39,326 bases of DNA from Okeania sp. SIO2B3 (lineage in GTDB: Bacteria > Cyanobacteriota > Cyanobacteriia > Cyanobacteriales > Microcoleaceae), in the NCBI RefSeq assembly GCF_010672525.1, contig NZ_JAAHGH010000072.1:1-39326 (forward strand), in the 5' to 3' direction. The position numbers and the translations under genes were made by a program. Positions within the stretch are counted from its first letter, which is position 1. Each line of letters starts with the position of its first letter. Under the pieces are notes generated by a model. It was given only the letters and a program-made list of their open reading frames with translations. It did no database searches and was not told where the DNA came from. This document shows, in pieces, positions 1,273 through 36,356 of this stretch.

Positions 1273-2682
1273 ATGTGGCAAAATAAATTTATTAAACGTT
1301 TTGACAAAAACAACGGTAGTTGGCAAATTAGTCTACAACTAGAAAATAGTCTTAATAATTGGGTTAATAGTGTTGACAAACCAAATGAAGCTGATTTTGC
1401 TGATTTTTGTTTTGAACAATCTAATTTGCTCAATTTAGATAATATTTACACACAACATTTATGTGCTTATTTAGAAAATATTGGCTGGTATACTTCTCAA
1501 AGTATTCATTATAAAATCATAAGAAAAGGAGAAGATTTACGCAGTAATATTATTCATACTTCTGTAGAAGATATTTTTCAAATTTTCTGGGAGAAAGAAG
1601 CTAATAATCCTATAGTTTTTTATAAAAATTATAATCCCACTCTAGGAACGTTAGTTAAATATACCAAAAGAAAAATGAAATGCATCATTGAAGATGATGT
1701 TTTTGATAATCCAGTAGATACTCATACTGGTTATGGTTTATTAAAAAAACTTAACTCTGAAATCAAGAAGAAAGAGGCTTTACAAAGGCAAGGATATAAT
1801 AAAAAAACAGATGTAATGTTTGATAATTACATTACTATTTGGAAGTTATTTAATGAAGTTTGTAGACATCATAAAAAAGAACCTAAGCCAGAACATTGGC
1901 AAACTTTAACTCAACTTTATAACAAAGATAATCAACCTACAGTTGAAGAAGAAGTAATTCAAGGCTGGATTAATAATATTTGCATTTCTGCTGCTAAAAA
2001 CTATTTATCCATTCGGATACAACAACCTAACTCTCCTGAACAAGATATTATAGAACAACTACGAGGTGATAATAATACGCCTGAATACATACTAGAACAA
2101 GAACATTTTAATCATCTAACCAATCATCTAACCAACAATTTTTATGCACAATCTAGAACTAATTTTCAAGATTTTATAAACAACAATTTAACTCTTGAAG
2201 AACAACAAGTTATGTTTTTATTATATGGTTTAAACTTTAATCAAACAGAAGTAGCAGAACAGTTAGGATGGTATTCTACAAAAAATGATAAACCAGAGCA
2301 ATTTAAAGTTAGTAGATGCAAAACCAAAATATTTAAAAAATTAATTAAATCATATATCGATGTAATTAAAACTAATCAAAATCAATTAGAATGGTTGAAT
2401 TTAGATGCACAAGTAAAACTAAATTCAGAAATAATTAATTTAGCTAAAAATTATTTTGAACCTATATTGGAAAAGTATAACTCAGAGTCAATGAACCTTT
2501 TAGTTGAACAAGCGCTAAATCAAAGTAGTAATCAAAATGAATGTGTATTATTAAAACAACGAAAAAGCCAACTTAAAACACAAATAACTAATAGAATTTA
2601 TCAGGAATTAAGAGTTTGTTTTTTAGATTCATATATCCTGTTATCAAAAATTAATGAATTAATTAGGGATTACTATGACTGA
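1273..2682 (+). CDS. Sigma-70-like HTH protein (cyanobacterial DUF1822-associated type)
   Basis: 469 residues, highly AT-biased and Asn/Gln-rich. Around residues 306-355 is a sigma region 4-like helix-turn-helix: LTLEEQQVMFLLYGLNFNQT, then EVAEQLGW, then a recognition-helix-like FKVSRCKTKIFKKL. Upstream, around residues 125-240, an RNA-polymerase-contact-like helical region (YTKRKMKCIIEDD) has no clear -10-melting signature, so whether it acts as a true sigma factor is open. The gene lies 77 bp upstream of a DUF1822 protein. The same pairing, with a divergent paralogue (26937-25375), recurs on the other strand of this window. Family knowledge: in cyanobacteria, sigma-70-like proteins of this large divergent type often sit next to DUF1822 genes. 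Promoter recognition is inference; it could instead be a DNA-binding adaptor. ATG at 1273 has no strong Shine-Dalgarno sequence. Confidence 0.6.
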   Translation: MWQNKFIKRFDKNNGSWQISLQLENSLNNWVNSVDKPNEADFADFCFEQSNLLNLDNIYTQHLCAYLENIGWYTSQSIHYKIIRKGEDLRSNIIHTSVEDIFQIFWEKEANNPIVFYKNYNPTLGTLVKYTKRKMKCIIEDDVFDNPVDTHTGYGLLKKLNSEIKKKEALQRQGYNKKTDVMFDNYITIWKLFNEVCRHHKKEPKPEHWQTLTQLYNKDNQPTVEEEVIQGWINNICISAAKNYLSIRIQQPNSPEQDIIEQLRGDNNTPEYILEQEHFNHLTNHLTNNFYAQSRTNFQDFINNNLTLEEQQVMFLLYGLNFNQTEVAEQLGWYSTKNDKPEQFKVSRCKTKIFKKLIKSYIDVIKTNQNQLEWLNLDAQVKLNSEIINLAKNYFEPILEKYNSESMNLLVEQALNQSSNQNECVLLKQRKSQLKTQITNRIYQELRVCFLDSYILLSKINELIRDYYD

Positions 2683-2759
2683 TAATTTTTCTTAACAATT
2701 AATAGTGCATATTTCATAAAGCTGTTCTTGATAAAACTATAGATTGGAGGTATTCAAAA

Positions 2760-4319
2760 ATGGGATTAACTTTAAAAGAATTAAAAATTATTGATGTAGA
2801 ATCAGTTTGGATCGCTTTATCACTAGAAGATGAAAAAACCGAACTTAAAGAATCTGATTATGCTGATGAAACAGCGTATTACAATGCTTTTGTTAATAAT
2901 CTTTGTTTAAAAGTAGTTGCTACTTGGTTAACAGAATATCTAGAAATAGATGAGCAAAAAATTACTATCTTTCCCACTCAAAAAGATGCACAAAAGCTCT
3001 GGAATTTTATTGATGGAACAGCTATTGAAGTAGAAAATACTCGTTTTATTATTGTCCCTGTAGAATCTGTAAATATTCAAGAATGTTCTATTCAAAAAGA
3101 GTGGATAGATTTACAAAATTGGATAGGTAACTATTATTTGTTCGTGGAAATAAATTTAGATAAACACTGGCTGAGAATATTGGGTTATACAACTCATAAA
3201 ACCATAAAATCAAAAGGGAAATACGATTGTACAACTCGCACTTATTCATTAGCTAGAGAACAATTAATTGATGACTTAGAAGTAATGTGGATAGCTAGAG
3301 AACTTTGCCCAGATGAAACAGAAAAAGTTGAGCAGTTACCAGTTATTACAAGAAGTAAAGCTTTAGATTTAGCATCAGAAGTTCAAAATTATTTGTCGAG
3401 TGTTGCTCGCTTAAGTTTAGATTTTGAGCATTGGGGAGCATTATTAGAAAATCATTGGGATTTATTATCTATAAAAATACCAGTTAGCACAATCAATCAA
3501 TCATTAAGTCCACTCAAAAATATAGTAGATATTTCTGAAGATATTATGATTAATTTAAAATCATGGTGGCAAAGACAATTTCCTAAAAACTGGTATCCTA
3601 TATATGAACTTTTAGGTTCAAATGAAAGTAATTTTACTTTTGCATTTCGTGGAAAAGCAGGGTCGAGAGAATCTATTCCTGAAGATCGAAAAACTATTCC
3701 TGCTTTAATCCAATTACTAGATGATAAAGATGAAGAGACTCGCTTAAAAGCAGCAGAATGTTTAGGAAGAATTGCACCAAATAATGCAGAAGCTATTACG
3801 GCACTTATTGATTTATTTAATACCAGTTTTGATAAATGGACTCGTCATCAAGCTATTGATAGTTTAGAACGAATTGGTAAAGGAAATAAACAAGCAAGTT
3901 CAGCTTTATCTCAATTACTAAAAACTCTAGAAGAAGATGAATTTCGGTGGAAAGTTGCACTTGCTTTAGGAAAAATAGATCCAGAACATCCAGAAGGTGG
4001 TGTAAGTCGTGCCAAACAAATTGATTTAGGTATGGAATTAGCAGGTCATTCGGTAGCTTTATTGGTTGCTCAAATGCCTAAAACAGAGCAAGAAACAGAT
4101 ATTTTGGTGCGAGTTCGCCCAATGCAGGAACATCTTTATTTACCTTCTGGTTTGCAGTTAATGATATTCGATCAGTTTGGGGAAAAAGTTGATGATGTTC
4201 ATGCTAGAGATGCGGATAATTTGATTCAATTACCGTTTTGCGTTGAGCCTCCAGAGCGCTTTAGCATTACCGTTGAATTAGGAAAAGTCTCTCATACAGA
4301 GCAATTTACCAGTGGTTGA
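2760..4319 (+). CDS. DUF1822 family protein with internal HEAT repeats
   Basis: 519 residues. Residues 1-185 are the DUF1822 N-terminal region (DGTAIEVENTRFIIVPVES, IGNYYLFVEINLDKHWLRI, LGYTTHKTI) and align residue by residue with the start of the GTPase fusion at 25344-22549. Residues about 300-410 form three HEAT/PBS-lyase-type helical repeats (IPALIQLLDDKDEETRLKAA, TALIDLF, SALSQLLKTLEEDEFRWKVA). Residues 416-519 are a beta-rich tail typical of DUF1822 proteins (LAGHSVALLVAQMPKTEQ, VRVRPMQ, LPSGLQLMIFD, ERFSITVELG). The start is supported by GGAGG at 2747-2751. DUF1822 has no established biochemical role; HEAT repeats usually bind other proteins. Together with the preceding sigma-like gene, 77 bp away, it probably forms a two-gene unit. 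A regulatory or adaptor function is inference. Confidence 0.8.
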   Translation: MGLTLKELKIIDVESVWIALSLEDEKTELKESDYADETAYYNAFVNNLCLKVVATWLTEYLEIDEQKITIFPTQKDAQKLWNFIDGTAIEVENTRFIIVPVESVNIQECSIQKEWIDLQNWIGNYYLFVEINLDKHWLRILGYTTHKTIKSKGKYDCTTRTYSLAREQLIDDLEVMWIARELCPDETEKVEQLPVITRSKALDLASEVQNYLSSVARLSLDFEHWGALLENHWDLLSIKIPVSTINQSLSPLKNIVDISEDIMINLKSWWQRQFPKNWYPIYELLGSNESNFTFAFRGKAGSRESIPEDRKTIPALIQLLDDKDEETRLKAAECLGRIAPNNAEAITALIDLFNTSFDKWTRHQAIDSLERIGKGNKQASSALSQLLKTLEEDEFRWKVALALGKIDPEHPEGGVSRAKQIDLGMELAGHSVALLVAQMPKTEQETDILVRVRPMQEHLYLPSGLQLMIFDQFGEKVDDVHARDADNLIQLPFCVEPPERFSITVELGKVSHTEQFTSG

Positions 4320-4402
4320 AAAAAATTTTTGCTGTTGAAGTGCATATTTCTGAATTTTTATCCTGATGAATAAGTACCAGGGCAGAATTAACCTAACATT
4401 TT

Positions 4403-4522
4403 TTGGAGGGTAGGTATAAATACATTGATGCCAGAGGTAAAAGGAATGTAGTTGGTTTAGTAAATACACAAATAATTTTGCACGACTACTTAAATAGCAA
4501 GTTAATTACAAAGGATAATTAA
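4403..4522 (+). other. Short reading frame (39 codons) with an IDARG...NTQI leader-like motif, possible remnant
   Basis: From a TTG at 4403 one frame stays open to TAA at 4520-4522, four bases before the ATG of the next gene. The product reads EGRYKYIDARGKRNVVG followed by LVNTQIILHDYL. The phrase IDARG-x-NVVG-x-NTQI resembles the IDARGxQGVQVGDGNTQ leader seen in some NLR- and CHAT-linked proteins, which has been discussed as an RHIM-like amyloid signalling motif. A good Shine-Dalgarno sequence (GGAGGG, 4405-4410) is present but lies inside the frame and is followed by no ATG, GTG or TTG in frame, so translation is doubtful. It may be the decayed 3' end of a gene or a tiny coupled peptide. 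Confidence 0.3.
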
Positions 4523-4526
4523 AAAT

Positions 4527-6902
4527 ATGCCTACTATTGCAGACATTGAACAAAGAGTACAAGTAATTCAACAGGAAATTAAACAATATTTACCTGATAT
4601 TACATCTGAACAAGCAAAAAAATTTGCTTACCAAGTAATTCGTTTAGATTTAGTTAAGGATTATAAAACAAAATATCCTGAAGATTTTAATTACTTTGAA
4701 CTCAAGGATTTGTTTGTTGCTGCTTGTAAATCACTAGATTATACTAAGCCTTATCGTATTGCTATTATTGGTAATACAGGTGTTGGTAAAAGTACCTTTA
4801 ATAATAGTTTAGTAGGGCGTAATCTTTTGTTCACTCGTGCTGAAGGAAAGGCAGCAACAGGAACAGTTTTAGAAATATTTTTTGTTGAGGAAAATGAACA
4901 AGAAATTGCAATTGTTGAATATCGGAATCAAAGAAAGATTAAAGCTTTAATCAAAAAAGTATTTCAAAAACTCAGCGAAAAAAATCTGATTAATATTCCT
5001 AATTGGCAAACAGTAATTGATGGTTCTCCTATTGACGATAATTTTAGGATGAATCTTGGTAATTTGAATCCTCCAAATAATCTTGGTTCAGGAGAACAGA
5101 CTTTATTCCAACAATATAAAGATACTGTTGTTGATATTATTGAACAATATCTACTACACGGCAATTTAAACTCAGAAACTTTTTACCTTAATAATCCAGA
5201 ACATTTACAACAGCTAAATCAATTAACTGATGAAAACAGTTTATTAAACAACTCCGATAATCCTAACCCTAACCGTAGAATTGGCTTGATTGAAAAAGTA
5301 ATATATAAGATTAAACCTAACACGCAAAACGACAATTTAGGGCTAGAATTTCCTACGAATGTTTGTTTAGTTGATTTACCAGGTTTAGATGGTAGTTTAT
5401 TACATGATTTAATTATTCTTGATGGAATAAAAGATGCTGATGCGGTTATTTACATTAATAACCCCAAACGAATTGATACTAATGCCGATCTCCAGTTACT
5501 AAGTGAGGTCAAAAGTTCAATTACTGTGAACAATAATAGAGATTCCTACAAAGGTATTTTCTTTATCCTAACTTCCAGAGATAATATTACCAGGGATGAA
5601 AACTATGATTCAACTCAATTGCCTCAAAATATGAGAGATTTCATAGATAAGTTTTTGCCTGGTTATACTCAACAGTTATCTAATCGAAACGATGAGGGCG
5701 ATCCTTATTTTTATGTATCATCTATTGCTGCTTATTACGCTAAAAAGTTATTGCGAGGAGAAACTTTATCAGAAGAATTAAGACAGACTTATGAACAAGC
5801 TTGTCTTGGTTTAAGAATCAGAAATTATGATGATTATAAAGCTGTATTAAATGCTAGTCGGATGCCTAAATTAATTGACAAGTTAAAATATTTTGTTCTG
5901 AATGAGCGCATCGATCAGCAAATTAATAATGGTAAAATTGCTCTTGATTCGATTATGATTTTTTTGGTTAATAAATATACTCTAGACCAAGAACAACAAA
6001 CTCGCATTATGGGTAATTTGTCTTTGGATGAAATTCAAACACAAACCTTGCTAAAAAAAGAAAAATACCTGAACGAGTTAGTTCAAAAGTTTAGCGTCAA
6101 AGAATTTAATTCTTTATCAGGATATCAGAATAAATTGTCTGCTTCAGTAAACGAAATTTGCCAAGAAATAGATATAGCAATTCAAAAACAAATGCCACAA
6201 ATTTGGCGAAAGTGCGTATCAACAGGAAGACCTTTAAATAATGGAAAGCCTGAATTAGCTGTATTAGCAAAAACATTTTTGTTAGAAGTTCAAACTAAAT
6301 TATGGCATCAACTAGGATATCGGATGGTTCGTTTTAGTGAACAGTTGGTTCAAGAATATCGCAATAGCTTACAACAAGAAAACTTAGTTAGAACAATAAC
6401 TAGAGAGTGTTATGAAACAGTTCAATATCAAGAATTAGAAAATAAATTAAACCATTGGATTGAGAAACAAATGGCCTTTAAACTAAAGGAAATTGCTTCT
6501 CGTATAGGTTTAGTTTTCTTGGGAAGGTCTCAAGATGATTTGTTGAATGATAATTCAGAGATTCTTAAAAAGAATAAATTTCTTAGTATTATTCGGCAAC
6601 TTCCTCAACAAGAAGAACTTGAACCTGAGAAATTTAAGCCTTTAGTACAAGAAATTCACGACCATTATACTCCTATTATTACTAGCTACTGTCTTACTGC
6701 ATTAATTAATGTATATCGCTATGAATATACTGTAATTGAAGAAAATTTAGTAGATTTTATTCGTCAGACTTTTCATAAGTTACTTTACACTCCTAATGCT
6801 AGAGCAAAAGATAAAATTCAAGGGGAGTTTAATCAACAACCTGGATGGCGAGTATTAGCAAAAATTGAAAATAAATTAGCTTTATTAAAAGCAATTCCTT
6901 AG
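4527..6902 (+). CDS. Large dynamin-like GTPase (GTPase A)
   Basis: 791 residues. The P-loop (G1) is IAIIGNTGVGKSTFNN at about residues 79-94. The switch II motif (G3) is VCLVDLPGLDG at about 279-289. The position expected for G4 reads FILTSRDNIT (about 345-354), where TSRD replaces the usual N/TKxD. A roughly 110-residue insertion between G1 and G3 includes a Pro/Gly/Asn-rich stretch (GNLNPPNNLGSGEQTLFQQY). After the GTPase domain the protein is almost entirely helical and lacks the Gly-rich hydrophobic hairpin seen in the other dynamin-like proteins here, so membrane insertion is not predicted. Its long helical tail would suit self-assembly. AAGGAT at 4511-4516 precedes the ATG. It is followed by another GTPase gene (7028) and a GAP1-like gene, an arrangement like the reported paired-GTPase conflict systems; that link is inference. 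Confidence 0.8.
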   Translation: MPTIADIEQRVQVIQQEIKQYLPDITSEQAKKFAYQVIRLDLVKDYKTKYPEDFNYFELKDLFVAACKSLDYTKPYRIAIIGNTGVGKSTFNNSLVGRNLLFTRAEGKAATGTVLEIFFVEENEQEIAIVEYRNQRKIKALIKKVFQKLSEKNLINIPNWQTVIDGSPIDDNFRMNLGNLNPPNNLGSGEQTLFQQYKDTVVDIIEQYLLHGNLNSETFYLNNPEHLQQLNQLTDENSLLNNSDNPNPNRRIGLIEKVIYKIKPNTQNDNLGLEFPTNVCLVDLPGLDGSLLHDLIILDGIKDADAVIYINNPKRIDTNADLQLLSEVKSSITVNNNRDSYKGIFFILTSRDNITRDENYDSTQLPQNMRDFIDKFLPGYTQQLSNRNDEGDPYFYVSSIAAYYAKKLLRGETLSEELRQTYEQACLGLRIRNYDDYKAVLNASRMPKLIDKLKYFVLNERIDQQINNGKIALDSIMIFLVNKYTLDQEQQTRIMGNLSLDEIQTQTLLKKEKYLNELVQKFSVKEFNSLSGYQNKLSASVNEICQEIDIAIQKQMPQIWRKCVSTGRPLNNGKPELAVLAKTFLLEVQTKLWHQLGYRMVRFSEQLVQEYRNSLQQENLVRTITRECYETVQYQELENKLNHWIEKQMAFKLKEIASRIGLVFLGRSQDDLLNDNSEILKKNKFLSIIRQLPQQEELEPEKFKPLVQEIHDHYTPIITSYCLTALINVYRYEYTVIEENLVDFIRQTFHKLLYTPNARAKDKIQGEFNQQPGWRVLAKIENKLALLKAIP

Positions 6903-6912
6903 TTCTAAAAAT

Positions 6913-6974
6913 AGGGAGTATCAGAGTTTTAGTATTTGATTATTTTCATAAAAATTTTAACTCTGAAACACCCT
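6913..6974. repeat. Inverted repeat between two GTPase genes
   Basis: The 16-bp arm AGGGAGTATCAGAGTT (6913-6928) is matched by AACTCTGAAACACCCT (6959-6974), with two mismatches and a 30-bp AT-rich loop. It starts 11 bp after the stop of GTPase A. It could fold in the transcript as an attenuating stem-loop or represent a small MITE. No T-tract follows directly, so a simple terminator is less likely. Confidence 0.6.
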
Positions 6975-7027
6975 AAAAATAACATAAATATATTCACAAT
7001 CATAAAATGCAATAGTAGGTAAATATT

Positions 7028-8314
7028 ATGATTCTCAAAGATTTTCTTCAAAATAACAATAATCACGCACTAACTCAAATTCGGATTGGTATTTGGGGTG
7101 GAGTTGGTTCTGGTAAAAGTATTTACTTAACTCGACTTTTTGAATGTTTAGAAAAATCACCAAATTATAGAATTGCAGCAGATGACAAAGCAATTGAATT
7201 TATTCAAACAAATAAACATATTTTAGATAATGAGAAAAGACCAGGTTCTCTACTGAAAGAAACAGACCCAGCTATGAGTGAATTAGAAATTTTTCGTTAT
7301 ACCATAACTTCTCAATCTAGTTGGTTTCAAGATGTAACAATTGTTTGGGAATTTATTGATGCTAGTGGTGAATTTTACGAAAATCCTGATAGCAATGTAC
7401 AAGTAAGTGACGGAGAAACTACTTATAACATTATTGAATATTTAATGAGTTGTCATGGAATTATTTTTTTGCTCGATCCTCTGCGCATATTAAAGACAGA
7501 ACAAACTAAAACTTATCGTAAATTATTATCAGATTTGTTCATTGAATTTAGACGCAGGTCTCGATCTAGTGTCAATCAAAAAGTAACTCCTTTAGAACAA
7601 TATATGGCATTTTGTGTGTCAAAAGTTGACGAGGAAGTCGCTAAAATTGATGGGAAAATTGTTAAAAAGACCGATGTAACTGAAGAAGAATATCAAAGAA
7701 TTAACTCAGAAGATGATAGAGATTGGTTATGGAAAGCTGGACAGAATCCCTATGATTTAGTTACAGAAATAATGGGAGAAGATATGACGACAAAATTAAG
7801 TACAGAATATTGTCGGGTAGAAACAAAGCCTGATAAACGAGAGAAACCCCATCCTCAAAATCGTTGTAATTTTTATGCTATTTCTGCATTTGGACGTTAC
7901 AGAGATGAGCGAGGAGAATTATGTACAGTTTTTGAAGATATTCAGCCTCAAATTCCTAATTCTAATTCACCAGATGCAGAAGAAGAAAAAAATACAAATG
8001 TTTGGGGAAATCAACCAGATTGGAATTCAGCTTTTTGCAATAATTCTAATAATCAAGAGTCGCAAACATCAAATTCATCAACGGGTTTTACTTGGGAGCA
8101 AGAGGAAGAGTATTCTAATGTTCCAGAACCTAATAAACTAATTATTAAAGAAGGAGTACCTATTAATTCATTCAATATAATTGAACCTCTTGAATGGTTA
8201 ATTAAAGGCATTCGTAAACATCCACCTATTCTTTTCTCGGATCGGCAACAAACATCATCAGTTCAAGAGAATCAAAAAAGAGTTAGATCCAGAAGCAGAA
8301 AAAGAGATAATTAA
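7028..8314 (+). CDS. TRAFAC-type P-loop GTPase resembling DO-GTPase (double-GTPase conflict systems)
   Basis: 428 residues. G1 is IGIWGGVGSGKSIYLTRLFE (about residues 20-39). G3 is WEFIDASGEFY (DxxG, about 107-117). A strand IIFLLDPLRI follows at about 147-156, G4 is CVSKVDEE (SKxD, about 196-203) and G5-like FYAISAFGR is at about 282-290. The end of the domain, FNIIEPLEWLIKGIRK, matches the closing helix (VxEPLxWLL) that I associate with DO-GTPase/TRAFAC proteins of NTP-dependent conflict systems. Between G5 and that helix is a low-complexity acidic/Asn-Ser stretch, and the C-terminus is basic (RVRSRSRKRDN). No transmembrane segment is seen. The ATG at 7028 gives the first Met before the P-loop. 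A MITE abuts the stop codon. Substrate and partner are unknown; the neighbouring large GTPase and GAP1-like protein are the likely partners. Confidence 0.7.
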   Translation: MILKDFLQNNNNHALTQIRIGIWGGVGSGKSIYLTRLFECLEKSPNYRIAADDKAIEFIQTNKHILDNEKRPGSLLKETDPAMSELEIFRYTITSQSSWFQDVTIVWEFIDASGEFYENPDSNVQVSDGETTYNIIEYLMSCHGIIFLLDPLRILKTEQTKTYRKLLSDLFIEFRRRSRSSVNQKVTPLEQYMAFCVSKVDEEVAKIDGKIVKKTDVTEEEYQRINSEDDRDWLWKAGQNPYDLVTEIMGEDMTTKLSTEYCRVETKPDKREKPHPQNRCNFYAISAFGRYRDERGELCTVFEDIQPQIPNSNSPDAEEEKNTNVWGNQPDWNSAFCNNSNNQESQTSNSSTGFTWEQEEEYSNVPEPNKLIIKEGVPINSFNIIEPLEWLIKGIRKHPPILFSDRQQTSSVQENQKRVRSRSRKRDN

Positions 8315-8415
8315 CAGGACTTACACACCAAAACAAGAAACCGGGTTTATTGCCCTGATTATTGTTTCTCAAATCACAAATTTTCGTATCATAACCCGGT
8401 TTCTACGTAAGTCCT
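8315..8415. mobile_element. MITE-like element, family with AGGACTTAC ends (copy 1)
   Basis: The left end AGGACTTAC (8316-8324) is followed by AGAAACCGGGTT (8336-8347), and the right end is AACCCGGTTTCTACGTAAGTCCT (8393-8415), its inverse with a small insertion on the left. AATTAA occurs on both flanks and may be a target duplication. The element begins right after the stop codon of the TRAFAC-type GTPase gene. If AATTAA is the duplication, the original stop would have been the same, so the protein was not truncated. Confidence 0.75.
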
Positions 8416-8468
8416 AATTAAATAAAATTTAGACCCATATTGACAAAATATAAAATCGAACAAAAAGT

Positions 8469-11957: not shown

Positions 11958-11980
11958 GTAGAAATAAGGAGAATATAACA

Positions 11981-12808: not shown

Positions 12809-12834
12809 GTTAGTCTACCCGGCATTGTTAAAAC

Positions 12835-12860
12835 AATTTTTCCTGGATTCAGGAAAAATT
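12835..12860 (+). terminator. Perfect stem-loop, candidate terminator after the PPC protein
   Basis: AATTTTTCCTG (12835-12845) and CAGGAAAAATT (12850-12860) form a perfect 11-bp stem with a four-base loop, followed closely by a T-rich run (12864-12873). It lies 27 bp after the stop at 12808 and could end the GTPase/GAP1-like transcript. The stem is AT-rich at its base, so its strength is moderate. Confidence 0.55.
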
Positions 12861-25344: not shown

Positions 25345-25374
25345 AGTCTTTTGCTTCCTTATCTTAGTTTTATA

Positions 25375-26937: not shown

Positions 26938-27020
26938 AGTAAAAAGACTTGTATAAATCAAAACTGACGATGATTAAACATTAATATTTTTTTGATAGTT
27001 AGATAACATTACCAGCTATT

Positions 27021-27557: not shown

Positions 27558-28613
27558 ATGTTGTTTAATTACCTTTTTTCACAATTTGCTGAGGATTGGT
27601 TTCAAGGAGATAATTCTCCAGATAACCCAGATAAAGATGATTTTGGTAATGATCCACCAAACAGTACCAGTAATTTCACTGAGTCAACCTTAAAGGATGA
27701 ATATTTTGGTGGAGATAGACATGGAGATAAATACGGTTATAATCTACCTGATGCTACAGAGTCCTTTTCTGACCTACCATCAAACGAAATATTCTTCCGA
27801 GGAGACGATCCTGATGGTAACGGTCACGAGCCTCCAGATAATATCCAAGAGTTTTCTGAATCTAATATTAACGATTTAGATTTAGATGAGAGCATAACTG
27901 ACGATTCTTGGGAGGATGATAATGATGAAAAATTCTTTCAAAGAAATAGTTCTGATGATACTAATGCAGACAACAGTATAGCTAGTAGTGACTCTTTGGA
28001 AAGCGATCGCGCAGACTATTACATCCCAGAAAATAATTGGTGTCCAGAAGACTTTGACGGATGGGGCGATCCTATTCAAGATGGTAATTGTTGGGAACAA
28101 CAAGATAGTGGAACATCTTGCGCTGTAGTTGCTCAAATTGCTGTTTATGAGTCTATTACAGGAATGGAAATTTCTGAGACTAAAGCTTGTGAAATAGCTC
28201 AAACAAACGGTTGGTACGATCCTCAAAAGGGTACGACTGGTGAGGATATTGGGAAATTATTAGAAGGTTTTGGCATTTCTACAAAGCAATCTTACGATGC
28301 AACCTTAGTTGATATTGCAGAAGCTTTAGAAAAAGGAGATAAGGTAATTGTAGGACTAGATGCTAATGAAATTTGGTATCCCTATCGAGATAGTACAACA
28401 GGTAATCCCATCGAACAAACAAATGTAGGTCATGCTGTCTGGGTTACAGGAATAGACCCTCAACCCGATGGCAGTATCAAAATTATTCTTAATGATAGCG
28501 CTACACCTGATGGCAAAATGAAAGCTATAGATGCAGAAGATTTTCTTAATGCTTGGGAAGATTTTAGCAATTTATTAGTAGTAGCTGATACACCTAACAA
28601 AAGACTCTGGTAA
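27558..28613 (+). CDS. C39-like cysteine peptidase with acidic repeat N-terminus
   Basis: 351 residues; AAGAGG at 27546-27551 precedes the ATG. The N-terminal 150 residues are strongly acidic and low-complexity. They hold three spaced units, each F-x-GD followed by a Pro-rich acidic loop and then F-[TS]-[ED]-[SL] (starting at Phe15, Phe50 and Phe80). The C-terminal domain is papain-like, C39 type. Gln/Cys are in WEQQDSGTSCAVVAQ (Cys188), His in NVGHAVWVTGI (His292) and Asp in ILNDSATPDG (Asp313). There is no signal peptide at the N-terminus, so the substrate may be cytoplasmic, or export may use a leader-like route. It is followed 75 bp later by a COP23 lipoprotein. The repeat region could be an autoinhibitory or recognition tail. 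Peptidase assignment is from the ordered Cys/His/Asp motifs. Confidence 0.75.
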   Translation: MLFNYLFSQFAEDWFQGDNSPDNPDKDDFGNDPPNSTSNFTESTLKDEYFGGDRHGDKYGYNLPDATESFSDLPSNEIFFRGDDPDGNGHEPPDNIQEFSESNINDLDLDESITDDSWEDDNDEKFFQRNSSDDTNADNSIASSDSLESDRADYYIPENNWCPEDFDGWGDPIQDGNCWEQQDSGTSCAVVAQIAVYESITGMEISETKACEIAQTNGWYDPQKGTTGEDIGKLLEGFGISTKQSYDATLVDIAEALEKGDKVIVGLDANEIWYPYRDSTTGNPIEQTNVGHAVWVTGIDPQPDGSIKIILNDSATPDGKMKAIDAEDFLNAWEDFSNLLVVADTPNKRLW

Positions 28614-28687: not shown

Positions 28688-29206
28688 ATGAACATCAAAC
28701 ATTTGGTATTAGTTCTATTAGCACTTGCAACATTCAGTTGTTCCTCAACTACTGCTAATAGTTCAAATAAAATTGCTCAATCTAATATTTTATCTCAAAG
28801 TCGTTTTTTCTGCGAGCAAGACTTCAAAGGAACCCCTACTACTTATGTACAAACAGAAAGAGGAAGAATTGCTATTATTAAGTGGGTTTCTGAGTTTTTC
28901 ACAGATTCAGGTTACGACCCGCAAACTCGTTGTCAACAAGTTTCTCCCCAATTTCAAAAACTTTATAATAGGGGACAACTTAACTATCTTAGTGCTGGAC
29001 AAAAAAATGGTCAATATATTATCTGTGGTTTAAACGAACTAGGCGGACAGTGCGACCAATTATTTACTCTTAAACCTCAAGAAAATCCTGGTGCTATTTT
29101 AACTCATTTAAGAAAATTAGCTAGTGGAGAAACAAAAGAAGCTTATTTTGGTAGTTCTGCTGTTGATTTTAATAATTTCTTAGAAAATGCTCCTGTCGAA
29201 CCTTAG
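28688..29206 (+). CDS. COP23-domain lipoprotein (copy 2)
   Basis: 172 residues. The signal sequence LVLVLLALATFSCSS gives a probable lipidated Cys at about residue 18. The COP23 domain shows GTPTTYVQTERGRIAIIKWV, GYDPQTRCQQVSPQFQKLY, GQLNYLSAGQKNGQYIICGL and GGQCDQLFTL. Compared with copy 1 at 13279 the C-terminal part is shorter. It probably forms a unit with the C39 peptidase gene upstream. Family knowledge: COP23 proteins are cyanobacterial membrane-associated proteins first described for circadian-regulated abundance; their molecular function is unknown. Confidence 0.85.
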   Translation: MNIKHLVLVLLALATFSCSSTTANSSNKIAQSNILSQSRFFCEQDFKGTPTTYVQTERGRIAIIKWVSEFFTDSGYDPQTRCQQVSPQFQKLYNRGQLNYLSAGQKNGQYIICGLNELGGQCDQLFTLKPQENPGAILTHLRKLASGETKEAYFGSSAVDFNNFLENAPVEP

Positions 29207-29353: not shown

Positions 29354-31756
29354 ATGACAATTAATCATCAATTACTGCAACAAATATCTGCTAAAGCAGC
29401 CAAAAAACAAACAGGTGTTGGTGCTTTACCCCGCAGTATTCATAAAACACCAGGACTTCGAGAATGGGTGACAATACAATCTTTTGCTTTGCCCCCTGTA
29501 CCTTTTAAACATCATCAAGAATGGAGGATTATTTCATTATTAATTACCCAAAAAAAAATCAATAATCAACAACAAGAGTGGTTTGCTCCTTGGGGAGCAA
29601 TAGAATGGTCTTTTTCTCAGAAAAGTGTTATTCAAAAAATTGATTTTCGAGATTTACCCCAAAGTTCACCAATAACTTCTTTAAGAGAAAGAAGTTTCAT
29701 ATCTGTTCATCCAGCCAATGGTAAAAATTATCTAGAATTAGACTCATATACTGAACGGGAAAATCGCCTTTTTCAAGCTCTTGATAAATTACTAAAATTA
29801 CCACCATCCGAAGAGATCGATTTAGCTACTCTTAATCCTGATTATGCTGCGATTTTACCAACAGAAATTTATCCTTATTATTGGGCTTTAATTCCCGAAA
29901 GTAAAACTTGGCTACATTATGATAGTTCAGCTATAAAACAAAATTCTGAAAATTCTGTTCGAGTAGAGCAACCTTCTAATAGAGAAGAGCGACAAACTCA
30001 ACCATCACAAGATAGTAAAAAAGCTATAGATGTAACTAATCATTTAATTTCTTGGCTACATCAAACTTCTGCCTTAGCAAAATCTACTCAAATTGATAAT
30101 CTAATTTTAGAATTAGATAATATAGAAAAACGTGACCGATCAAATAGTTTTTGTTTAGTTATTGTGGGAGAAGTAAATCGTGGTAAAAGCAAATTCATTA
30201 ATCAAATTTTCAATCGTAGCCTTGTTCCTGAAGGAATATTACCTACCACAGCTACTTTAACTTCAATTACTGCTGCTCCCATAGAAAAAATGATAGTTTA
30301 TTCTGCTAAAAATCGAGAAGAACGAGATTTACAAGAATCTTCATGGAATGATTTATTAGCAACAGATAAAGCAGGAACAGATCGAGAAACATTTGCAGGA
30401 GTTGAACTAACTGTTAATGATGCTTGGTTAAAAGAATTAGATGTTGAATTAATTGATACTCCTGGAACCCAAGATTTATGTAATCGTCGTGCAGAATTAG
30501 TTTTCGATGTTTTAAGCAATTCAGATGCAGCAATTTTTGTGATTCATAGTAATTTCCCTTTAAGTCTTACTGAAAAAAATTTCCTGAAATATGAATTACT
30601 CAAACGTCGTGTCCCTAACATTTTAGTAGTAGTTTCTCACTTGGATAAAATCTCAGTAGAAGAAAGAATTAGAGTTATTAATCATATCAAAAAACAATTA
30701 AGTGAAATTTCTAGCAATATTCCTGTATTACCTTTACATCCAATTGATGATTCTACTACTGATGAAGAAGTTATTAATCAGGTTAAATTTTTTATTCAAG
30801 AAATGACTAACAAAGGAAAGCGTAGAATTTATAAAAGTCAACAAATAGCAGGTCAAATAACAGAATGTCTTACTAATTTAATTAACATAGGGGAAGGAGC
30901 GATCGCTACAGCTAAAATGAATCCAACTGAAAAAGAAGCTGCTGTTCAAAAAGCTCGTTTAGAAGTTGAAAATAATGAAGAAAATTGGGGTAAAATCCGT
31001 CGTAACTTACATCAAAAATATCAGCAAAAAGTTAAAGACTTACAAGATAAAATCTTTGACGATAAAAGCCAGTTATTAGAAACACTTATCTTTGAGCTAG
31101 ACCGAAACTCAAATCCTAAATATTGGTGGCAAAGAGAATTACCATTTCGTTTAAAACGTGAATTACTCAGCTTAAGTCGTAAATTAGAAGATTATATAAT
31201 TAGAGCTATAGCTGCTGATTTTGATTGGTTAAACAAGGCAGTTTCTCAAACTTTTTCAATGAAAATATCTAAAAATAGTTCATTTGATCGACAAAATTAT
31301 TCTTCAAGAAATATTGATCCTCATCTCAGCGATATAGAACTTTCCGATCTACAAAAAGACCGTTTATTTAATCGTTTAGGAATGGGAGGAATAACAATAT
31401 GTGCCTCTATTTTTGGCGGTCCTGTTGGAACTCTAGCTAGTATGGGAACAACAATTTTAACCGAACAAATTATTCATAAAAAAATCAATGAACAAAAACA
31501 GATTATTAAGATTAATTTAGAACCAACTATTAATAAAATTTTTGAAGAATATTATCAAGGTGCTTCTAAACGTCTTTACCATCTATATGAGCAATTAATT
31601 GCAGAAACAAAACAGAAACAAATGCTTTGGTTATCATCCCGTAATAAAGCCATTAAACAAATGAACTTTGTGAGTTCTGCCGAGCAACATTGGGAACCTA
31701 TTATCAAGCAAGCATCAGAGTTAAAAGAAGAAATTTTACATACTCTATCTGCATAA
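29354..31756 (+). CDS. Dynamin-like GTPase with unique N-terminal domain (GTPase B)
   Basis: 800 residues; AGGAAG at 29341-29346. Residues 1-200 form a domain I do not recognise (LREWVTIQSFALPPVPFKHH, WFAPWGAIEWSFSQKSVIQK, NYLELDSYTERENRLFQALD), followed by a Gln/Ser-rich linker. The GTPase domain has G1 VIVGEVNRGKSKFINQIFNR (about 270), G2 region LPTTATLTSI, G3 LIDTPGTQDL (about 365), and the G4 position VVVSHLDKI (SHLD). A short Gly-rich hydrophobic hairpin (GMGGITICASIFGGPVGTLA, about 675-695) is a probable membrane-insertion element, flanked by long coiled coils. It is the most diverged of the three tandem dynamin-like proteins. The gene starts the tandem B-C-D array. A 383-bp gap with a repeat separates it from GTPase C. 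Confidence 0.85.
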   Translation: MTINHQLLQQISAKAAKKQTGVGALPRSIHKTPGLREWVTIQSFALPPVPFKHHQEWRIISLLITQKKINNQQQEWFAPWGAIEWSFSQKSVIQKIDFRDLPQSSPITSLRERSFISVHPANGKNYLELDSYTERENRLFQALDKLLKLPPSEEIDLATLNPDYAAILPTEIYPYYWALIPESKTWLHYDSSAIKQNSENSVRVEQPSNREERQTQPSQDSKKAIDVTNHLISWLHQTSALAKSTQIDNLILELDNIEKRDRSNSFCLVIVGEVNRGKSKFINQIFNRSLVPEGILPTTATLTSITAAPIEKMIVYSAKNREERDLQESSWNDLLATDKAGTDRETFAGVELTVNDAWLKELDVELIDTPGTQDLCNRRAELVFDVLSNSDAAIFVIHSNFPLSLTEKNFLKYELLKRRVPNILVVVSHLDKISVEERIRVINHIKKQLSEISSNIPVLPLHPIDDSTTDEEVINQVKFFIQEMTNKGKRRIYKSQQIAGQITECLTNLINIGEGAIATAKMNPTEKEAAVQKARLEVENNEENWGKIRRNLHQKYQQKVKDLQDKIFDDKSQLLETLIFELDRNSNPKYWWQRELPFRLKRELLSLSRKLEDYIIRAIAADFDWLNKAVSQTFSMKISKNSSFDRQNYSSRNIDPHLSDIELSDLQKDRLFNRLGMGGITICASIFGGPVGTLASMGTTILTEQIIHKKINEQKQIIKINLEPTINKIFEEYYQGASKRLYHLYEQLIAETKQKQMLWLSSRNKAIKQMNFVSSAEQHWEPIIKQASELKEEILHTLSA

Positions 31757-32139: not shown

Positions 32140-34119
32140 ATGTATCCAGTTTCTATTGACTATCAAGAAACAACATTGATTTTGCTAAATATCATCAAAG
32201 TATTACAACAGTTCTCTCAAATACTAAATCTAAATAATTTAATATTTATTATGGAGAATGCTGAAAAACGCCTTAAAGATCATCAATTTTCTATTGCCGT
32301 CGTCGGCGAATTTAATCGGGGCAAAAGTACCTTAATTAATGCTTTATGCGGAGAAGAGATTTTACCTTCAGATATTTTACCTTGTTCGGCAACTCTAAAC
32401 CGCATAAGTTACGCAGAAAAACCAAGTGCTAAAATTAATTTCCAAGACGGAAGCGAAAGAGAAATAGAGTTTTATAAATTAGCTAATTTTGTTACTAAAA
32501 AAAATACAGAATCACAAGCCGTAGCAGCAACAGTAAAAGAAGCAAAAGTCTATTATCCTATCTCTTATTTTCAACATAATAAGATTGAAATTATTGATAC
32601 ACCGGGATTAGGCGATGAAGATAATATGACCGCTGTTACTCTATCAGTTTTACAACAATGTGAATTAGCAATTATGATAATTTCGGCTCAATTTCCCTTT
32701 TCTATTACTGAAAGTAATATTCTCATTGATAAATTATTAGAAAATGGTGTTGGAGAAGTTTTATTTATTGTCAACGAAATTGATAGATTTGATAAAACAG
32801 AAGATGTAGAAAGAGTAATTAATAAAATCAGCCATCGCATTGAAGAAACTATTAATGAATGGGCACAAGACCAAATAAACCCTGAATTAGCTCTAAAAAA
32901 AATTGGCAAACCGAGAGTTTGGGGATTATCAGCACTACAAGCTTTAAAGGCTAAACAAACCCACGACATGGCTTTATTAGGTCAAAGTCAATTCGTTAAT
33001 TTTGAACATGACTTGAAGACTATTTTATCTGAAAAAAGAAGTTTAATAATTTTACAAGTAACTGTTAATCAAATTATTAAAGTTGTGACTGAAATTATCG
33101 AAACTATTAGTCTTCAAAAAGAATTACTAGATCGACAACAAGCACAATTACAAGAAATGAGTGCAATTATTGATTCTGAGGTATCCAAAATTCGTCAAAA
33201 GAAACGAGAAGTTATTCAATTTATAGACGATACAATTTCGACAGCTCAACAACAGGCTCAGACATCAACCTACAAATTTCAACAAGACCTAAAAAAAGCA
33301 GCGGAAATAATCATTGACAATACAACAGTAACTCCAGCGGAAATAAAGAATGATAATTTTTTACCAAATTTATCTAATCAAATATCTACTTCTTTGAATG
33401 AGGCTAGTAATAAGCTAACTCAAAACATCGAAAGTGAAATTATACAAGGACAAGAATTATTCGTAGCTAAAATTTTAGATTTTAGTCAGTTCGTTGAAAA
33501 TATGCCTGACAATATATATCATAAATTAAAACAATTAGAAATTGATATTAGCTTGACTGATGAAGTAATTCAGCAAATTGAAACAGTTAATCAACTTTGT
33601 AATAACTTAACTGCTAATAATAATAATAATAATGAATTATTTCTAATATCTTTTAACTCAGATAGTTTTATGATTCAAAATAATCCCAGTGGCGTAGGAA
33701 CTGGTATTGGTGCTGGTATTGGACTTGTCTTATTAGGACCAATTGGCGCAGGTATTGGTGCTGGTATTGGGGCAAATATTGGCAACAGATCGAGAGCTAA
33801 GAAATTTAAAGAAAAATTTCAACCATTAGTTAATATAGCTATTGATGATAAATTACGAGAAAAAAATATTAATCAGATAGTTGATGATTATGTATCTCAA
33901 GCTTTGGTAGAAGTATTGCGACAAGCTAAAAAAATCCTAGAAACTATCAACTCTGTAATCGAAACTATCCAATCAAACTTAGTTGAACAAATAGCGCAAC
34001 AGGAGACGCTTATTAATCATAAAAAACAACAAATTACTCAAATGGAACCAGAAACACAGTCTATTTTAAACTATGCTCAAAACTTATCAGAAAAATTAGT
34101 TAAAATCAGGAGTGCATAA
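32140..34119 (+). CDS. Dynamin-like GTPase with glycine-zipper paddle (GTPase C)
   Basis: 659 residues; GAGG lies at 32125-32128. G1 is FSIAVVGEFNRGKSTLINAL (about 49-68). G2 region LPCSATLNRISY follows, G3 is IIDTPGLGDED (about 151), and the G4 position FIVNEIDRF (NxxD). The following helical region carries a coiled coil. At about 519-549 there is a striking glycine-zipper hairpin (GVGTGIGAGIGLVLLGPIGA, then GIGAGIGANIG), which should insert into or oligomerise in a membrane. A coiled-coil tail closes the protein. The G2-G3 region is close to GTPase D and to the DUF1822 fusion, but the paddle is different, so these proteins could form mixed assemblies with distinct membrane contacts. Bacterial dynamin-like proteins often occur in tandem and work as hetero-oligomers; that is family knowledge. 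Confidence 0.88.
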   Translation: MYPVSIDYQETTLILLNIIKVLQQFSQILNLNNLIFIMENAEKRLKDHQFSIAVVGEFNRGKSTLINALCGEEILPSDILPCSATLNRISYAEKPSAKINFQDGSEREIEFYKLANFVTKKNTESQAVAATVKEAKVYYPISYFQHNKIEIIDTPGLGDEDNMTAVTLSVLQQCELAIMIISAQFPFSITESNILIDKLLENGVGEVLFIVNEIDRFDKTEDVERVINKISHRIEETINEWAQDQINPELALKKIGKPRVWGLSALQALKAKQTHDMALLGQSQFVNFEHDLKTILSEKRSLIILQVTVNQIIKVVTEIIETISLQKELLDRQQAQLQEMSAIIDSEVSKIRQKKREVIQFIDDTISTAQQQAQTSTYKFQQDLKKAAEIIIDNTTVTPAEIKNDNFLPNLSNQISTSLNEASNKLTQNIESEIIQGQELFVAKILDFSQFVENMPDNIYHKLKQLEIDISLTDEVIQQIETVNQLCNNLTANNNNNNELFLISFNSDSFMIQNNPSGVGTGIGAGIGLVLLGPIGAGIGAGIGANIGNRSRAKKFKEKFQPLVNIAIDDKLREKNINQIVDDYVSQALVEVLRQAKKILETINSVIETIQSNLVEQIAQQETLINHKKQQITQMEPETQSILNYAQNLSEKLVKIRSA

Positions 34120-34301
34120 ATTTTACTTTTTAACCTGATGAAAGAATAAGTAACCAATTTTACGAATTAAGGAGGTGATGTTAATGGTTATCTAGCAGTT
34201 ATTCTAAATATCCATCAGGAGTAACTACCTAATTCTATATTAGCCTCGACATTTTGAAATGATATCTACTTTAAAGTTTTGAAATTTAGGAAAATACAAC
34301 C

Positions 34302-36356
34302 ATGTCAACTCAAGAAAAATCAAGTACAGAAACAACAACCAATTCTCTTGGTTCATTCATTAACTATAACCAAGTAATAATGACTTTAGTAGGAGACTTA
34401 AATAAATTAAAGTCATTTAGTCAAAAACTTCACCTAAACAAATCAATTAAACTAATTGATACTATTTTAAAAAAAATCAAAACAGAATCTTTTTCTATTG
34501 CTATTGTTGGTGAATTTAATCGTGGCAAAAGTAAATTGATTAATGCTTTATTAGGTCAAGAAATTTTACCATCTGATGTATTACCCACAACAGCAACTCT
34601 CAACCGTGTTATCTTTGGGTTTACACCATTAGTCAAAGTTGTATTTAAGGATGGTTCTGAAAAAGAAGTTCCTATTAAAGAATTAAAACAATATGTAACT
34701 AAATTAACTATTGAATCTGAAAAACAAGCTAGTTCAATTCAGGAAGTAATTCTTGAATATAATGTTGAATATTGTAAGAAAAATGTTCAGATTTTAGATA
34801 CTCCTGGATTAAATGAACATGGTGATATGGATGAATTAACAATTTCTCTTTTACCTAATGTAGATGTAGCTATTTTGGTAATGTCAGCTCAAGCTCCTTT
34901 TGCAAAATCAGAACAAAATTTTTTAGAAACTCACTTACTAAATAGCGATCTAGGACGAGTTATTTTTGTTGTTAATCAAATCGATTATCATAGCCCGGAA
35001 GACGCAAATCGAATTATAAGTTATGTGGAACAAAGAATTAAAGCATATGTTTTAGAAAGGGCTGAAGAAGAGTATGGGACAGAATCTCCAGAATATCATA
35101 AATACATTAAAACAATTGGGAGACCTAAAGTTTTTGGTATTTCTGCTCTGAAAGCATTAAAAGGTAAAGAAACAAATCAACTAGAGTTATTAGCTCAGAG
35201 TCGTTTTCCAGTGTTTGAAGATGCGCTAGAACAGTTTTTAACTCAAGATCGAGCCGCAATTTTATTACAAGTTCCTGTTAATCGAATAATTAGTTCGTCT
35301 ACAGAAATTATCTATACCATTAATATGGAAGAAAATGCCTTGAAAATGAGCAGAGAGCAATTTCAACAAAGTTATGATACTGGTGTTAACGAAATAGAAG
35401 GCATTCGTAAGCGGAAAAAAGAAGAAATGGAGTTGATTAATAAGGCAGCAGAAAATGTAAAATATCGAGTTCAGCCTTTAATTTATCAGCTTCCAATTAT
35501 TCTGAAACAAGCAGTAGAAACAGCTATTGAAGAAACTCCCATTGAAAAAGGAGAAGTCAAAAGAAAGAAAGTTTTACAAGAAAAATTTTCTCGTGCTGTT
35601 ACTAATGCAGTACAAAAAGCAAGTCGTCAATTTTCCGAGAAAATACAAACAGAAATTCAACAGGGTATCGATCGAGAAGTAGATCGTCTTAAAGATTTTA
35701 CTACTTCAGTAGATGAAGCTTTTAATAAGATTGAAATGGAGTTTGTTGATATTGAATTTAATACTGAAAAAAAGACGACTTCTAATGCACAAGTAATTAC
35801 TGCTGCTTTAGCTGCATTTACGGGATTGGGTGGAATTTGGTCTGGTTATCGGGTTGCAGGAATAAAAGGTGCAGCAGTTGGTGCAGGTGCTAGCATTATA
35901 ACAGCTTTTGGAGTAGGATTTATAGCAGCCATGTTTGGTCTGACGATTGGTTTCCCAATTATTGTAGCTACTGGAATTGCTGGCATTTTTACAGCAGATT
36001 GGTCAGCTAAAAAAGTTTTTACTAAAGAGATGGAACGCAATTTTAAAGATAATTTCCAAGAAGCAATTACCAAAGAAATTGATAAGAAACTGCGAGAACA
36101 ACATCTTGAACAAGAAATTAGTAATCTAATTTCAGAACCTTTTAATGCTCTTCAGCAAACCTTAAACCAGGAAGTAGAAGCACTTCTGGATAATACTCAA
36201 AATAAACTGGCTCAATTACGAGGCGATCGCGAACGAGGAGTAGTCTTAAATGAAACTAAACAGCAAGAACTAGAGACAATGCGTACCGAAACTCAAAGAA
36301 TATTAGGTAATGCTGAACGATTATCAAAGGAAATTGTGGAAATCATGGGTATTTAA
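34302..36356 (+). CDS. Dynamin-like GTPase, close paralogue of the DUF1822 fusion (GTPase D)
   Basis: 684 residues; TTAGG lies 11 bases before the ATG. G1 is FSIAIVGEFNRGKSKLINAL (about 65-84). G2 region LPTTATLNRVIFG follows, G3 is ILDTPGLNEHGD (about 164), and the G4 position FVVNQIDYH (NxxD). The membrane paddle is long (about 499-568: AALAAFTGLGGIWSGYRVAG ... GLTIGFPIIVATGIAGIF). The C-terminal coiled coil matches the DUF1822-GTPase (22549-25344) nearly residue for residue (LNQEVEALLDNTQNKLAQLR), and the DNA over positions 36177-36265 differs at about five sites from its inverted counterpart at 22664-22752. It lacks a DUF1822 domain, so it is a free version of the same enzyme. It is the last gene of the tandem GTPase array. 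Confidence 0.88.
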   Translation: MSTQEKSSTETTTNSLGSFINYNQVIMTLVGDLNKLKSFSQKLHLNKSIKLIDTILKKIKTESFSIAIVGEFNRGKSKLINALLGQEILPSDVLPTTATLNRVIFGFTPLVKVVFKDGSEKEVPIKELKQYVTKLTIESEKQASSIQEVILEYNVEYCKKNVQILDTPGLNEHGDMDELTISLLPNVDVAILVMSAQAPFAKSEQNFLETHLLNSDLGRVIFVVNQIDYHSPEDANRIISYVEQRIKAYVLERAEEEYGTESPEYHKYIKTIGRPKVFGISALKALKGKETNQLELLAQSRFPVFEDALEQFLTQDRAAILLQVPVNRIISSSTEIIYTINMEENALKMSREQFQQSYDTGVNEIEGIRKRKKEEMELINKAAENVKYRVQPLIYQLPIILKQAVETAIEETPIEKGEVKRKKVLQEKFSRAVTNAVQKASRQFSEKIQTEIQQGIDREVDRLKDFTTSVDEAFNKIEMEFVDIEFNTEKKTTSNAQVITAALAAFTGLGGIWSGYRVAGIKGAAVGAGASIITAFGVGFIAAMFGLTIGFPIIVATGIAGIFTADWSAKKVFTKEMERNFKDNFQEAITKEIDKKLREQHLEQEISNLISEPFNALQQTLNQEVEALLDNTQNKLAQLRGDRERGVVLNETKQQELETMRTETQRILGNAERLSKEIVEIMGI

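Follow-up and report, generated by a model that had tools for sequence, protein, structure and literature searches.

In this study, we analyzed a 39,326-nucleotide stretch of DNA from the cyanobacterium Okeania sp. SIO2B3 (hereafter the window; C220:1-39326, within a 10.0 Mb assembly of 249 contigs), for which an earlier note had proposed a composite system of GTPases and proteases. We found that four genes coding for a dynamin-like protein (DLP), a DO-GTPase, a GAP1-like protein and a zinc-ribbon membrane protein form a conserved operon (core A, 4527-13185). To judge from its sequences, this patchily distributed core could be a dynamin-bearing variant of the GTPase-centric DO-GTPase/GAP1 conflict systems, working as a membrane GTP switch, a tentative reading that we place below an even chance. 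The surrounding 35-kb island consists of stacked modules (A, B, C and D) plus a cassette and is not a single machine. In some lineages the core is flanked by sigma-DUF1822 genes upstream and by COP23-trypsin genes up- or downstream, and a CHAT-STAND-WD40 gene closes the run here and in a close relative. It is the putative DO-GTPase/GAP1-type system with a constant dynamin that is new; the EACC2-type module B is already known.

Conservation and spread of the core operon

Seventeen core loci, each genomic place counted once, were compared: the window, L045, L137, L164-L168, L172-L176, L179, L181, L182 and L248. Contig-end fragments (L178, L187), duplicates (L170, L171, L177) and distant DO-GTPases (L138, L180, L183-L186, L188-L193) were excluded. 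Family labels at these loci came from profiles built from the window proteins (E 1e-5; 0.01 for the zinc ribbon, whose profile was seeded with the window, L045, L137, L164, L165 and L167 sequences themselves). In all 17 loci the order was DLP, DO-GTPase, GAP1-like, each being the next substantial gene on the same strand, with small frames (81 residues or fewer) intervening in a few loci. A zinc-ribbon gene followed the GAP1-like gene in 14 of 16 loci; it was not found in L168 and L174, and L173 was left out since a contig end truncates its GAP1-like gene and cuts the locus. Two types of core could be distinguished, type I with a DLP of ∼790 residues (11 loci) and type II with one of ∼725 residues (6 loci). 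Some copies are irregular: the DLP of L181 is split over two frames, both 90-95% matching the L182 DLP, the DO-GTPase of L182 is likewise split over two frames, and extra GAP1-like frames occur in L045, L181 and L182. L045 itself is a second core operon of the window's genome, of type II and with two tandem GAP1-like genes.

Copies of the core come from several cyanobacterial families, from a plasmid of Stanieria and from a Chloroflexi metagenome-assembled genome (MAG). A scan of genome contigs with a DO-GTPase alignment gave named loci in Planktothricoides SR001, Roseofilum halophilum, two Nostoc, Symploca, Trichodesmium, Okeania and the Chloroflexi MAG. On plasmid pSTA7437.02 of Stanieria cyanosphaera PCC 7437 the four core genes are consecutive, annotated as 'dynamin family protein' and three times as 'hypothetical protein'. 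Within the order the distribution is sparse: searched at E up to 1e-8, the DLP at 4527-6902 was present in 7 of 195 genomes, its own included, and in five of the six others DO-GTPase and GAP1-like genes lie directly after it. Among 292 cyanobacterial genomes, the GAP1-like query matched, besides itself, a single site, which is in its own genome and adjoins a second DO-GTPase. A two-row DO-GTPase alignment gave 4 of 386 genomes at E up to 0.001, two of them strong (the window's own genome and G320). No DO-GTPase relative was confirmed among 94 pattern matches in viral contigs, and the type I core DLP (L165 copy) had no match in plasmids. In an Anaerolineales locus (L183), one of the distant DO-GTPases has three tubulin-like proteins and a vWA protein as neighbours, with no GAP1 match in the seven proteins scanned there.

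The three core proteins diverge together. Their identity matrices, compared for 13 of the 17 systems, correlated with r 0.92 (DLP/DO-GTPase), 0.94 and 0.94, and with r 0.91-0.96 for type I alone; none of 2000 permutations reached the observed r. Shared host ancestry contributes to this correlation. Within Nostoc, the core of CHAB 5836 is 86-94% identical to that of NIES-2108.

Proteins of the window were scanned with Pfam and NCBIfam. Together with a predicted model, the scans gave six GTPases, that is, five DLPs and one DO-GTPase. Thus, the previous count of five (four dynamin-like and one TRAFAC type) was too low: the four DLPs outside the core were confirmed, and 4527-6902 is a further one. 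The core belongs to a plus-strand run of eleven genes (1273-22532), and its first gene (4527-6902, +) matches Dynamin_N at E 2.3e-8 and has orthologues that precede DO-GTPase genes. The predicted model of its product (12 sequences; pLDDT 78, pTM 0.55) resembles SynDLP and BDLP, its best PDB matches (E 3.4e-15, TM 0.35, and E about 1e-10, TM 0.21, respectively; both TM-scores are low). The dynamin GTPase domain and the long helical stalk of this model mark the protein as a DLP. Hydropathy was taken as the Kyte-Doolittle mean over 19 residues with a threshold of 1.6, and by this measure the core DLPs have no hydrophobic paddle (no 19-residue mean above 1.6 in 13 of 13 systems).

The second gene (7028-8314, +) matches DO-GTPase2 at E 4.3e-5. 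All nine aligned members match both DO-GTPase1 and DO-GTPase2 at E up to 0.1; the best value, 1.6e-12, is not tied to a particular member, and the distant L138 is among the nine. The Stanieria copy gave E 1.6e-5. By these profile matches the protein is assigned to the DO-GTPase family, the window copy scoring below the curated cut-off (23.7 of 27 bits).

The GAP1-like protein (8469-11957, +), named as such in the earlier note, is a conserved downstream partner in all 17 loci; it has no GAP1 match in Pfam. For comparison, a GAP1 of another bacterium was taken from a genome scan (GAP1-N1 E 3.4e-22, with EAD1), together with a marginal GAP1-N2 (E 8e-4, below cut-off). With hhalign, the N-terminal domain of the GAP1-like protein gave probabilities of 2.9% (GAP1-N1) and 8.8% (GAP1-N2), and column shuffles scored as high in 1 of 200 and 0 of 200 cases, respectively. 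GAP1-N1 and GAP1-N2 have been named as versions of a single domain (PMC7159879). Their comparison with each other scores lower still than those with the GAP1-like protein, so such thin alignments cannot settle membership, and the profile evidence for GAP1 homology is no more than suggestive.

Two zinc-ribbon membrane genes, absent from the list in the earlier note, complete the core. The first (11954-12808, +) carries the motif W-x-C...C-x(2-4)-C directly after the GAP1-like gene, a hydrophobic segment (hydropathy 1.79), a coiled coil recognized by eye and a PPC-like part (PPC E 0.013, below cut-off). The second (12931-13185, +; 84 residues) has the same motif and a hydrophobic segment of 1.57, just below the threshold. 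All 11 occurrences of the motif among 174 open reading frames of ten loci sit just downstream of a GAP1-like gene. In 14 loci, 15 of 17 zinc-ribbon proteins exceed 1.6, the other two being the short window protein and a short frame in L181 (1.49). Two zinc-ribbon genes are also present in L165 and L166.

Modules around the core

Module B begins with sigma-70/ECF-like protein A (1273-2682, +; NCBIfam sigma70-ECF E 5e-4, below cut-off), directly before a DUF1822 protein with HEAT repeats (2760-4319, +; Pfam E 2.5e-79). The AlphaFold model of the latter (pLDDT 86.5) has an N-terminal alpha/beta part, a HEAT middle and C-terminal strands. A known anti-sigma fold was considered for DUF1822 and had no PDB support among the matches listed. 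The module ends with a CHAT-class-nSTAND1-WD40 protein (17718-22532, +; nSTAND1 E 5.6e-98). The STAND and WD40 parts suggested previously were recovered by Pfam. A direct Pfam CHAT domain had to be rejected (no match at E 0.05), and homology was used instead: residues 1-400 match 41 of the 52 genes that directly follow DUF1822, with a best E of 7e-66. A small protein with a hydrophobic segment (17314-17706, +; hydropathy 2.17) precedes this gene and is 95% identical in the close relative L176.

To place these genes, 76 DUF1822 genes from the window and 86 fetched loci were examined; they were chosen from ranked lists and are thus a non-random sample in which the window's genome and family are over-represented. 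A same-strand gene lies within 400 bp upstream in 71 of the 76, and 67 of these 71 are sigma-like or of a short class (40 long sigma-like, 27 short). Of the 31 upstream proteins that did not pass as long sigma-like ones, NCBIfam sigma70-ECF matched 8 (E up to 0.01). On the downstream side, 41 of 52 same-strand neighbours are CHAT-class, and 29 of these carry a CHASE2-class region. Pfam confirmation of CHAT, CHASE2 and DUF928 comes from a single example, L148, whose frequent neighbourhood of sigma, DUF1822, CHAT-CHASE2 and DUF928 genes (7962-12595) is a candidate transmembrane sensor-protease-sigma relay. CHAT-STAND(-WD40) proteins follow DUF1822 directly in L082 and past an 82-residue frame in L069. 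On the basis of these matches, the window holds an EACC2-type module wrapped around the core, module A standing between the DUF1822 and CHAT genes: by homology to the genes following DUF1822, the CHAT/caspase protein is assigned the constant N-part, and the sigma-DUF1822 pair lies upstream on the same strand, 13 kb from the CHAT gene. Sigma-DUF1822 lies directly upstream of the core in 3 of 11 type I loci (from two lineages and with one broken copy), being intact in Trichodesmium MAG_R03 (L176) and present as remnants in Nostoc NIES-2108 (L172), where the sigma gene is split by minus-strand frames that read, by eye, like transposase and the contig breaks off before a CHAT gene is reached.

Module C comprises a COP23 protein (13279-13854, +; Pfam E 2.1e-34) with, by eye, a lipoprotein-like N-terminus and a double trypsin-TPR protein (14043-17078, +; Trypsin_2 E 1e-42 in two stretches) with an N-terminal hydrophobic segment by hydropathy. 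Both COP23 proteins and the double trypsin-TPR architecture of the earlier note were confirmed by the scans. COP23 genes are widespread, being present in 56 of 60 genomes, with 10 copies in the genome of the window. Among the 30 best-scoring COP23 loci, taken with 1.5 kb flanks as a control, a trypsin-class gene lies within the stretch in 21 and is the next same-strand frame in 20. The pair stands beside 5 of 11 type I cores and none of the 6 of type II, downstream in the window, L176 and L172 and upstream in L164 and L167. These represent three of about seven lineages, whereas ∼1% would be expected per 10-kb stretch by rough arithmetic (10 COP23 genes per 10 Mb), so the association is unlikely to be due to chance. 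In Roseofilum L164, a DUF4344 metallopeptidase, a VWD protein and a papain-like protease (3421-8659) stand directly before the dynamin gene, between the COP23-trypsin pair and the core. Trypsin genes also accompany module B elsewhere, a double trypsin lying directly after sigma-DUF1822 in L094 (Pfam) and a trypsin-TPR gene after CHAT in L090.

Downstream of the run lies the cassette, a minus-strand pair consisting of a DUF1822 N-part fused to a DLP (22549-25344, -), as the earlier note had it and Pfam confirmed, and sigma-70/ECF-like protein B (25375-26961, -; sigma70-ECF 47.6 bits, cut-off 42.9). Of the two sigma-like/DUF1822 pairs originally proposed, both DUF1822 parts and sigma B are thus upheld, and sigma A stays below its cut-off. 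Then comes module D, a second DLP operon on the plus strand: a C39-like cysteine peptidase (27558-28613), also expected previously and matching Peptidase_C39_2 weakly (22.9 bits, cut-off 24), a COP23 protein (28688-29206; Pfam E 9.4e-35) and three DLPs. The first DLP has a 250-residue N-terminal extension (29354-31756; Dynamin_N E 2.5e-19); the second (32140-34119; E 1.2e-25) and third (34302-36356; E 2e-28; BDLP 2j68 E 4.5e-29) have hydrophobic stretches near their C-termini (hydropathy 1.82 and 2.23). Locus L141, of family f3, has the C39 gene adjoining the DLPs, the first DLP with its extension conserved, and two further DLPs in the same order, with no COP23 label and no core; several more genomes carry relatives of the second and third DLPs in tandem. 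The DLP half of the cassette is so similar to 34302-36356 (72% protein identity; 82% DNA identity over 1939 bp) that duplication and fusion would be its simplest origin. The fusion matches just positions 1-223 of the 370 in the DUF1822 profile; mapped onto the model of 2760-4319, it would keep the N-terminal part without the C-terminal strands. No other DUF1822-DLP fusion was found among the matches listed for 291 genomes, the best three candidates per genome being scored, or in four genomes with all candidates scored.

Trichodesmium MAG_R03 (L176, L215) is nearly co-linear with the window. It differs in that zinc ribbon and COP23 are merged into a single frame, that it carries its own insert, that its contig breaks off within the last DLP and that the cassette is absent: about 210 bp replace 4.4 kb (22542 to 26910), and homology resumes at 26910, the second internal ATG of sigma-like protein B. 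In the merged frame, the ribbon and membrane part run straight into COP23, the end of which looks frameshifted; this hints at a contact on the outer side, or at decay. The insert beside the missing cassette (L215 7771-8388) codes for a 205-residue protein that resembles, by eye, L045 14085-14702 beside the type II operon.

Scanning the window for Rfam families and tRNAs gave no matches. Promoter-like sites were not in excess over shuffles (86 versus a mean of 101.6, and 83 versus 81.6), nor terminator-like sites in clear excess (10 versus 7.0, and 5 versus 9.7), and with counts near shuffle level these scans cannot delimit operons. At 37331-38275 lies an XerC-like tyrosine recombinase with 46% G+C in surroundings of mostly 28-35%, possibly a recent arrival or the edge of a mobile element.

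It had been proposed to compare gene neighbourhoods, independently scattered genes being the outcome that would speak against a single system. Recurring blocks were found instead (the core in 17/17 loci, and among type I loci COP23-trypsin in 5/11 and sigma-DUF1822 in 3/11), and because these blocks keep their order in other genomes, the gene association is more than chance. The families thus partly belong together, as was thought, and the modules also occur apart. That the whole 35 kb is one system appears very improbable. MAG_R03 does preserve the order of modules A, B, C and D on a single contig, save for the missing cassette, the merged frame and its insert; with 84-96% DNA identity over the seven genes compared, however, this co-linearity is weak evidence. 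Among the more distant loci fetched, none combines all modules, and there are loci with A alone or D alone. The opposite extreme, in which the modules merely accumulated in an island, only A (and D) being a unit and the rest coincidence, is unlikely in our view. It would agree with the finding of A, B, C and D each without the others, with the tyrosine recombinase at the right end and with a cassette present here and absent from a relative, whereas COP23 and trypsin beside A in three lineages and sigma-DUF1822 directly before A in two argue against it.

A possible membrane switch

From the gene order, families and motifs we infer a mechanism for the core. The DO-GTPase and the GAP1-like protein would form a GTP switch at the inner face of the membrane. 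Because the core DLP itself lacks a hydrophobic paddle, the zinc-ribbon protein is proposed to bring both switch and DLP to the membrane and hold them there, with the ribbon inside and the coiled coil and PPC-like part outside; this orientation was assigned by eye, since basic residues precede the hydrophobic segment and the PPC-like domain follows it. An invader or a membrane lesion might flip the switch, upon which the DLP would assemble and seal, tubulate or breach the membrane, and the zinc-ribbon protein could relay this state to the exported COP23/trypsin pair. Sigma-DUF1822-CHAT may serve as a transcriptional arm in which DUF1822 holds the sigma-like protein until cleavage or a pull releases it; a DLP in place of the C-terminal part of DUF1822, as in the cassette, could tie sigma release to the nucleotide or membrane state of the DLP. 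Modules C and D would add protease and more DLP capacity. An immune role is suggested by the known family, the patchy spread, the plasmid carriage and the variable flanks. It is improbable, and still worth stating, that this represents a distinct class of GTPase-based bacterial immune systems, in which a DO-GTPase/GAP1 switch drives a membrane dynamin via a zinc-ribbon transmembrane coupler, lineages add a sigma/DUF1822/CHAT arm and exported proteases, and the DUF1822-dynamin fusion is a dynamin-controlled candidate anti-sigma factor.

The main rival to immunity is housekeeping membrane maintenance, with the core as an envelope-stress or thylakoid-remodelling device and the proteases as envelope quality control, which we regard as possible if somewhat doubtful. 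The closest fold is that of SynDLP, a Synechocystis dynamin, COP23-trypsin is a common genomic pair, and the evidence on core transfer between families is mixed. On the other hand, the core looks unlike a housekeeping set because of its patchy spread (within the order, 7 of 195 genomes have a type I DLP gene), its plasmid copy in Stanieria PCC 7437 and its variable flanks.

Several observations weigh against interpreting the core as a conflict system with these partners. One DLP orthologue (L169; 19.9 kb fetched) has no DO-GTPase or GAP1-like gene, and the distant DO-GTPase relative L138 has neither a DLP nor a GAP1-like neighbour. Full-length hhalign comparison of the GAP1-like protein with GAP1 gave E 0.17 and 0.15 with probabilities below 1%, the best match lying near the N-termini, and the Pfam GAP1-N2 model had no match in 117 cyanobacterial genomes. 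As to exchange between families, L166 (f17) and L167 (f4) share 81/55/66% identity in DLP/DO-GTPase/GAP1-like versus 64/52/71% for the same-genus pair L164-L167, so that, in a comparison of core proteins only, one of three clearly favours exchange. In the fetched stretches, no gene labelled as COP23, trypsin, sigma, DUF1822 or CHAT accompanies 6 of 11 type I and all 6 type II cores. Most core loci lack flanks B and C, even that of Nostoc CHAB 5836, and COP23-trypsin and sigma-DUF1822-CHAT are also frequent in cyanobacteria as separate units. Among the 50 PDB matches listed for the DUF1822 model there was no anti-sigma factor or Csx30, and PADLOC gave no match for the DO-GTPase or the GAP1-like protein.

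Relation to known systems

DO-GTPase/GAP1 GTPase-centric conflict systems have been described by Kaur et al. (2020; PMC7159879), whose text contains the term 'dynamin' 0 times, as does that of a second paper naming DO-GTPase. They share with the core a TRAFAC GTPase from the DO-GTPase families with a large GAP1-like gene behind it, the presence of zinc ribbons and of membrane segments, and constant cores with variable neighbours. The window's core differs in that its constant first gene is dynamin-like, that the zinc ribbon and membrane segment lie on a separate protein and that its GAP1-like protein is too divergent for Pfam. General Pfam scans of the window (best 25 of 57 matches for one protein; no GASH-specific search was made) gave no FNIII or GASH among the matches listed. 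The core was found mainly in Cyanobacteria, with search patterns built from cyanobacterial sequences. A literature search, with subscription journals and bioRxiv outside its reach, found no paper placing a dynamin within a DO-GTPase/GAP1 system.

Module B resembles the EACC2-caspase systems (Kaur et al., 2021; PMC8195603), in which a sigma-like (ECF) protein and DUF1822 likewise make up a unit with a CHAT/caspase protein of variable C-terminus (CHASE2, STAND). Unlike there, the dynamin/DO-GTPase set parts DUF1822 from the CHAT gene in the window, and the cassette fuses a dynamin to the DUF1822 N-part. With bacterial DLPs such as BDLP, SynDLP, LeoABC and DynA the window shares the GTPase with a long helical stalk and, in module D, several DLP genes in a row. 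In the core, by contrast, the DLP lacks a hydrophobic paddle and is constantly paired with a DO-GTPase instead of another DLP. Craspase (CASP-sigma/Csx30/TPR-CHAT Csx29; PMC10028731) also has a sigma factor, a candidate inhibitor and a CHAT protease encoded together. Unlike Craspase, the window has no CRISPR parts that we could see, and DUF1822 has no Csx30 fold match among the 50 PDB matches listed, so that a Craspase-like sigma/DUF1822/protease relay may serve as a working analogy only. With PADLOC, the DLPs matched LeoA/LeoBC, trypsin-TPR matched LmuA and RT-Protease_XI, and DUF1822 and CHAT-STAND-WD40 matched HEAT-ARM_XIII; these were matches to single proteins, with no complete known anti-phage system in the window. 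A further set of ten proteins had no PADLOC match.

DO-GTPase/GAP1 systems are predicted immune switches. To our knowledge, no membrane output has been described for them, and little is known of what regulates bacterial dynamins. A conserved gene set that pairs DO-GTPase/GAP1 with a dynamin makes both questions testable, and in a culture-collection strain, Stanieria PCC 7437, which carries the plasmid copy. In addition, one locus links two families of predicted conflict systems, the GTPase-centric and the EACC2-caspase systems.

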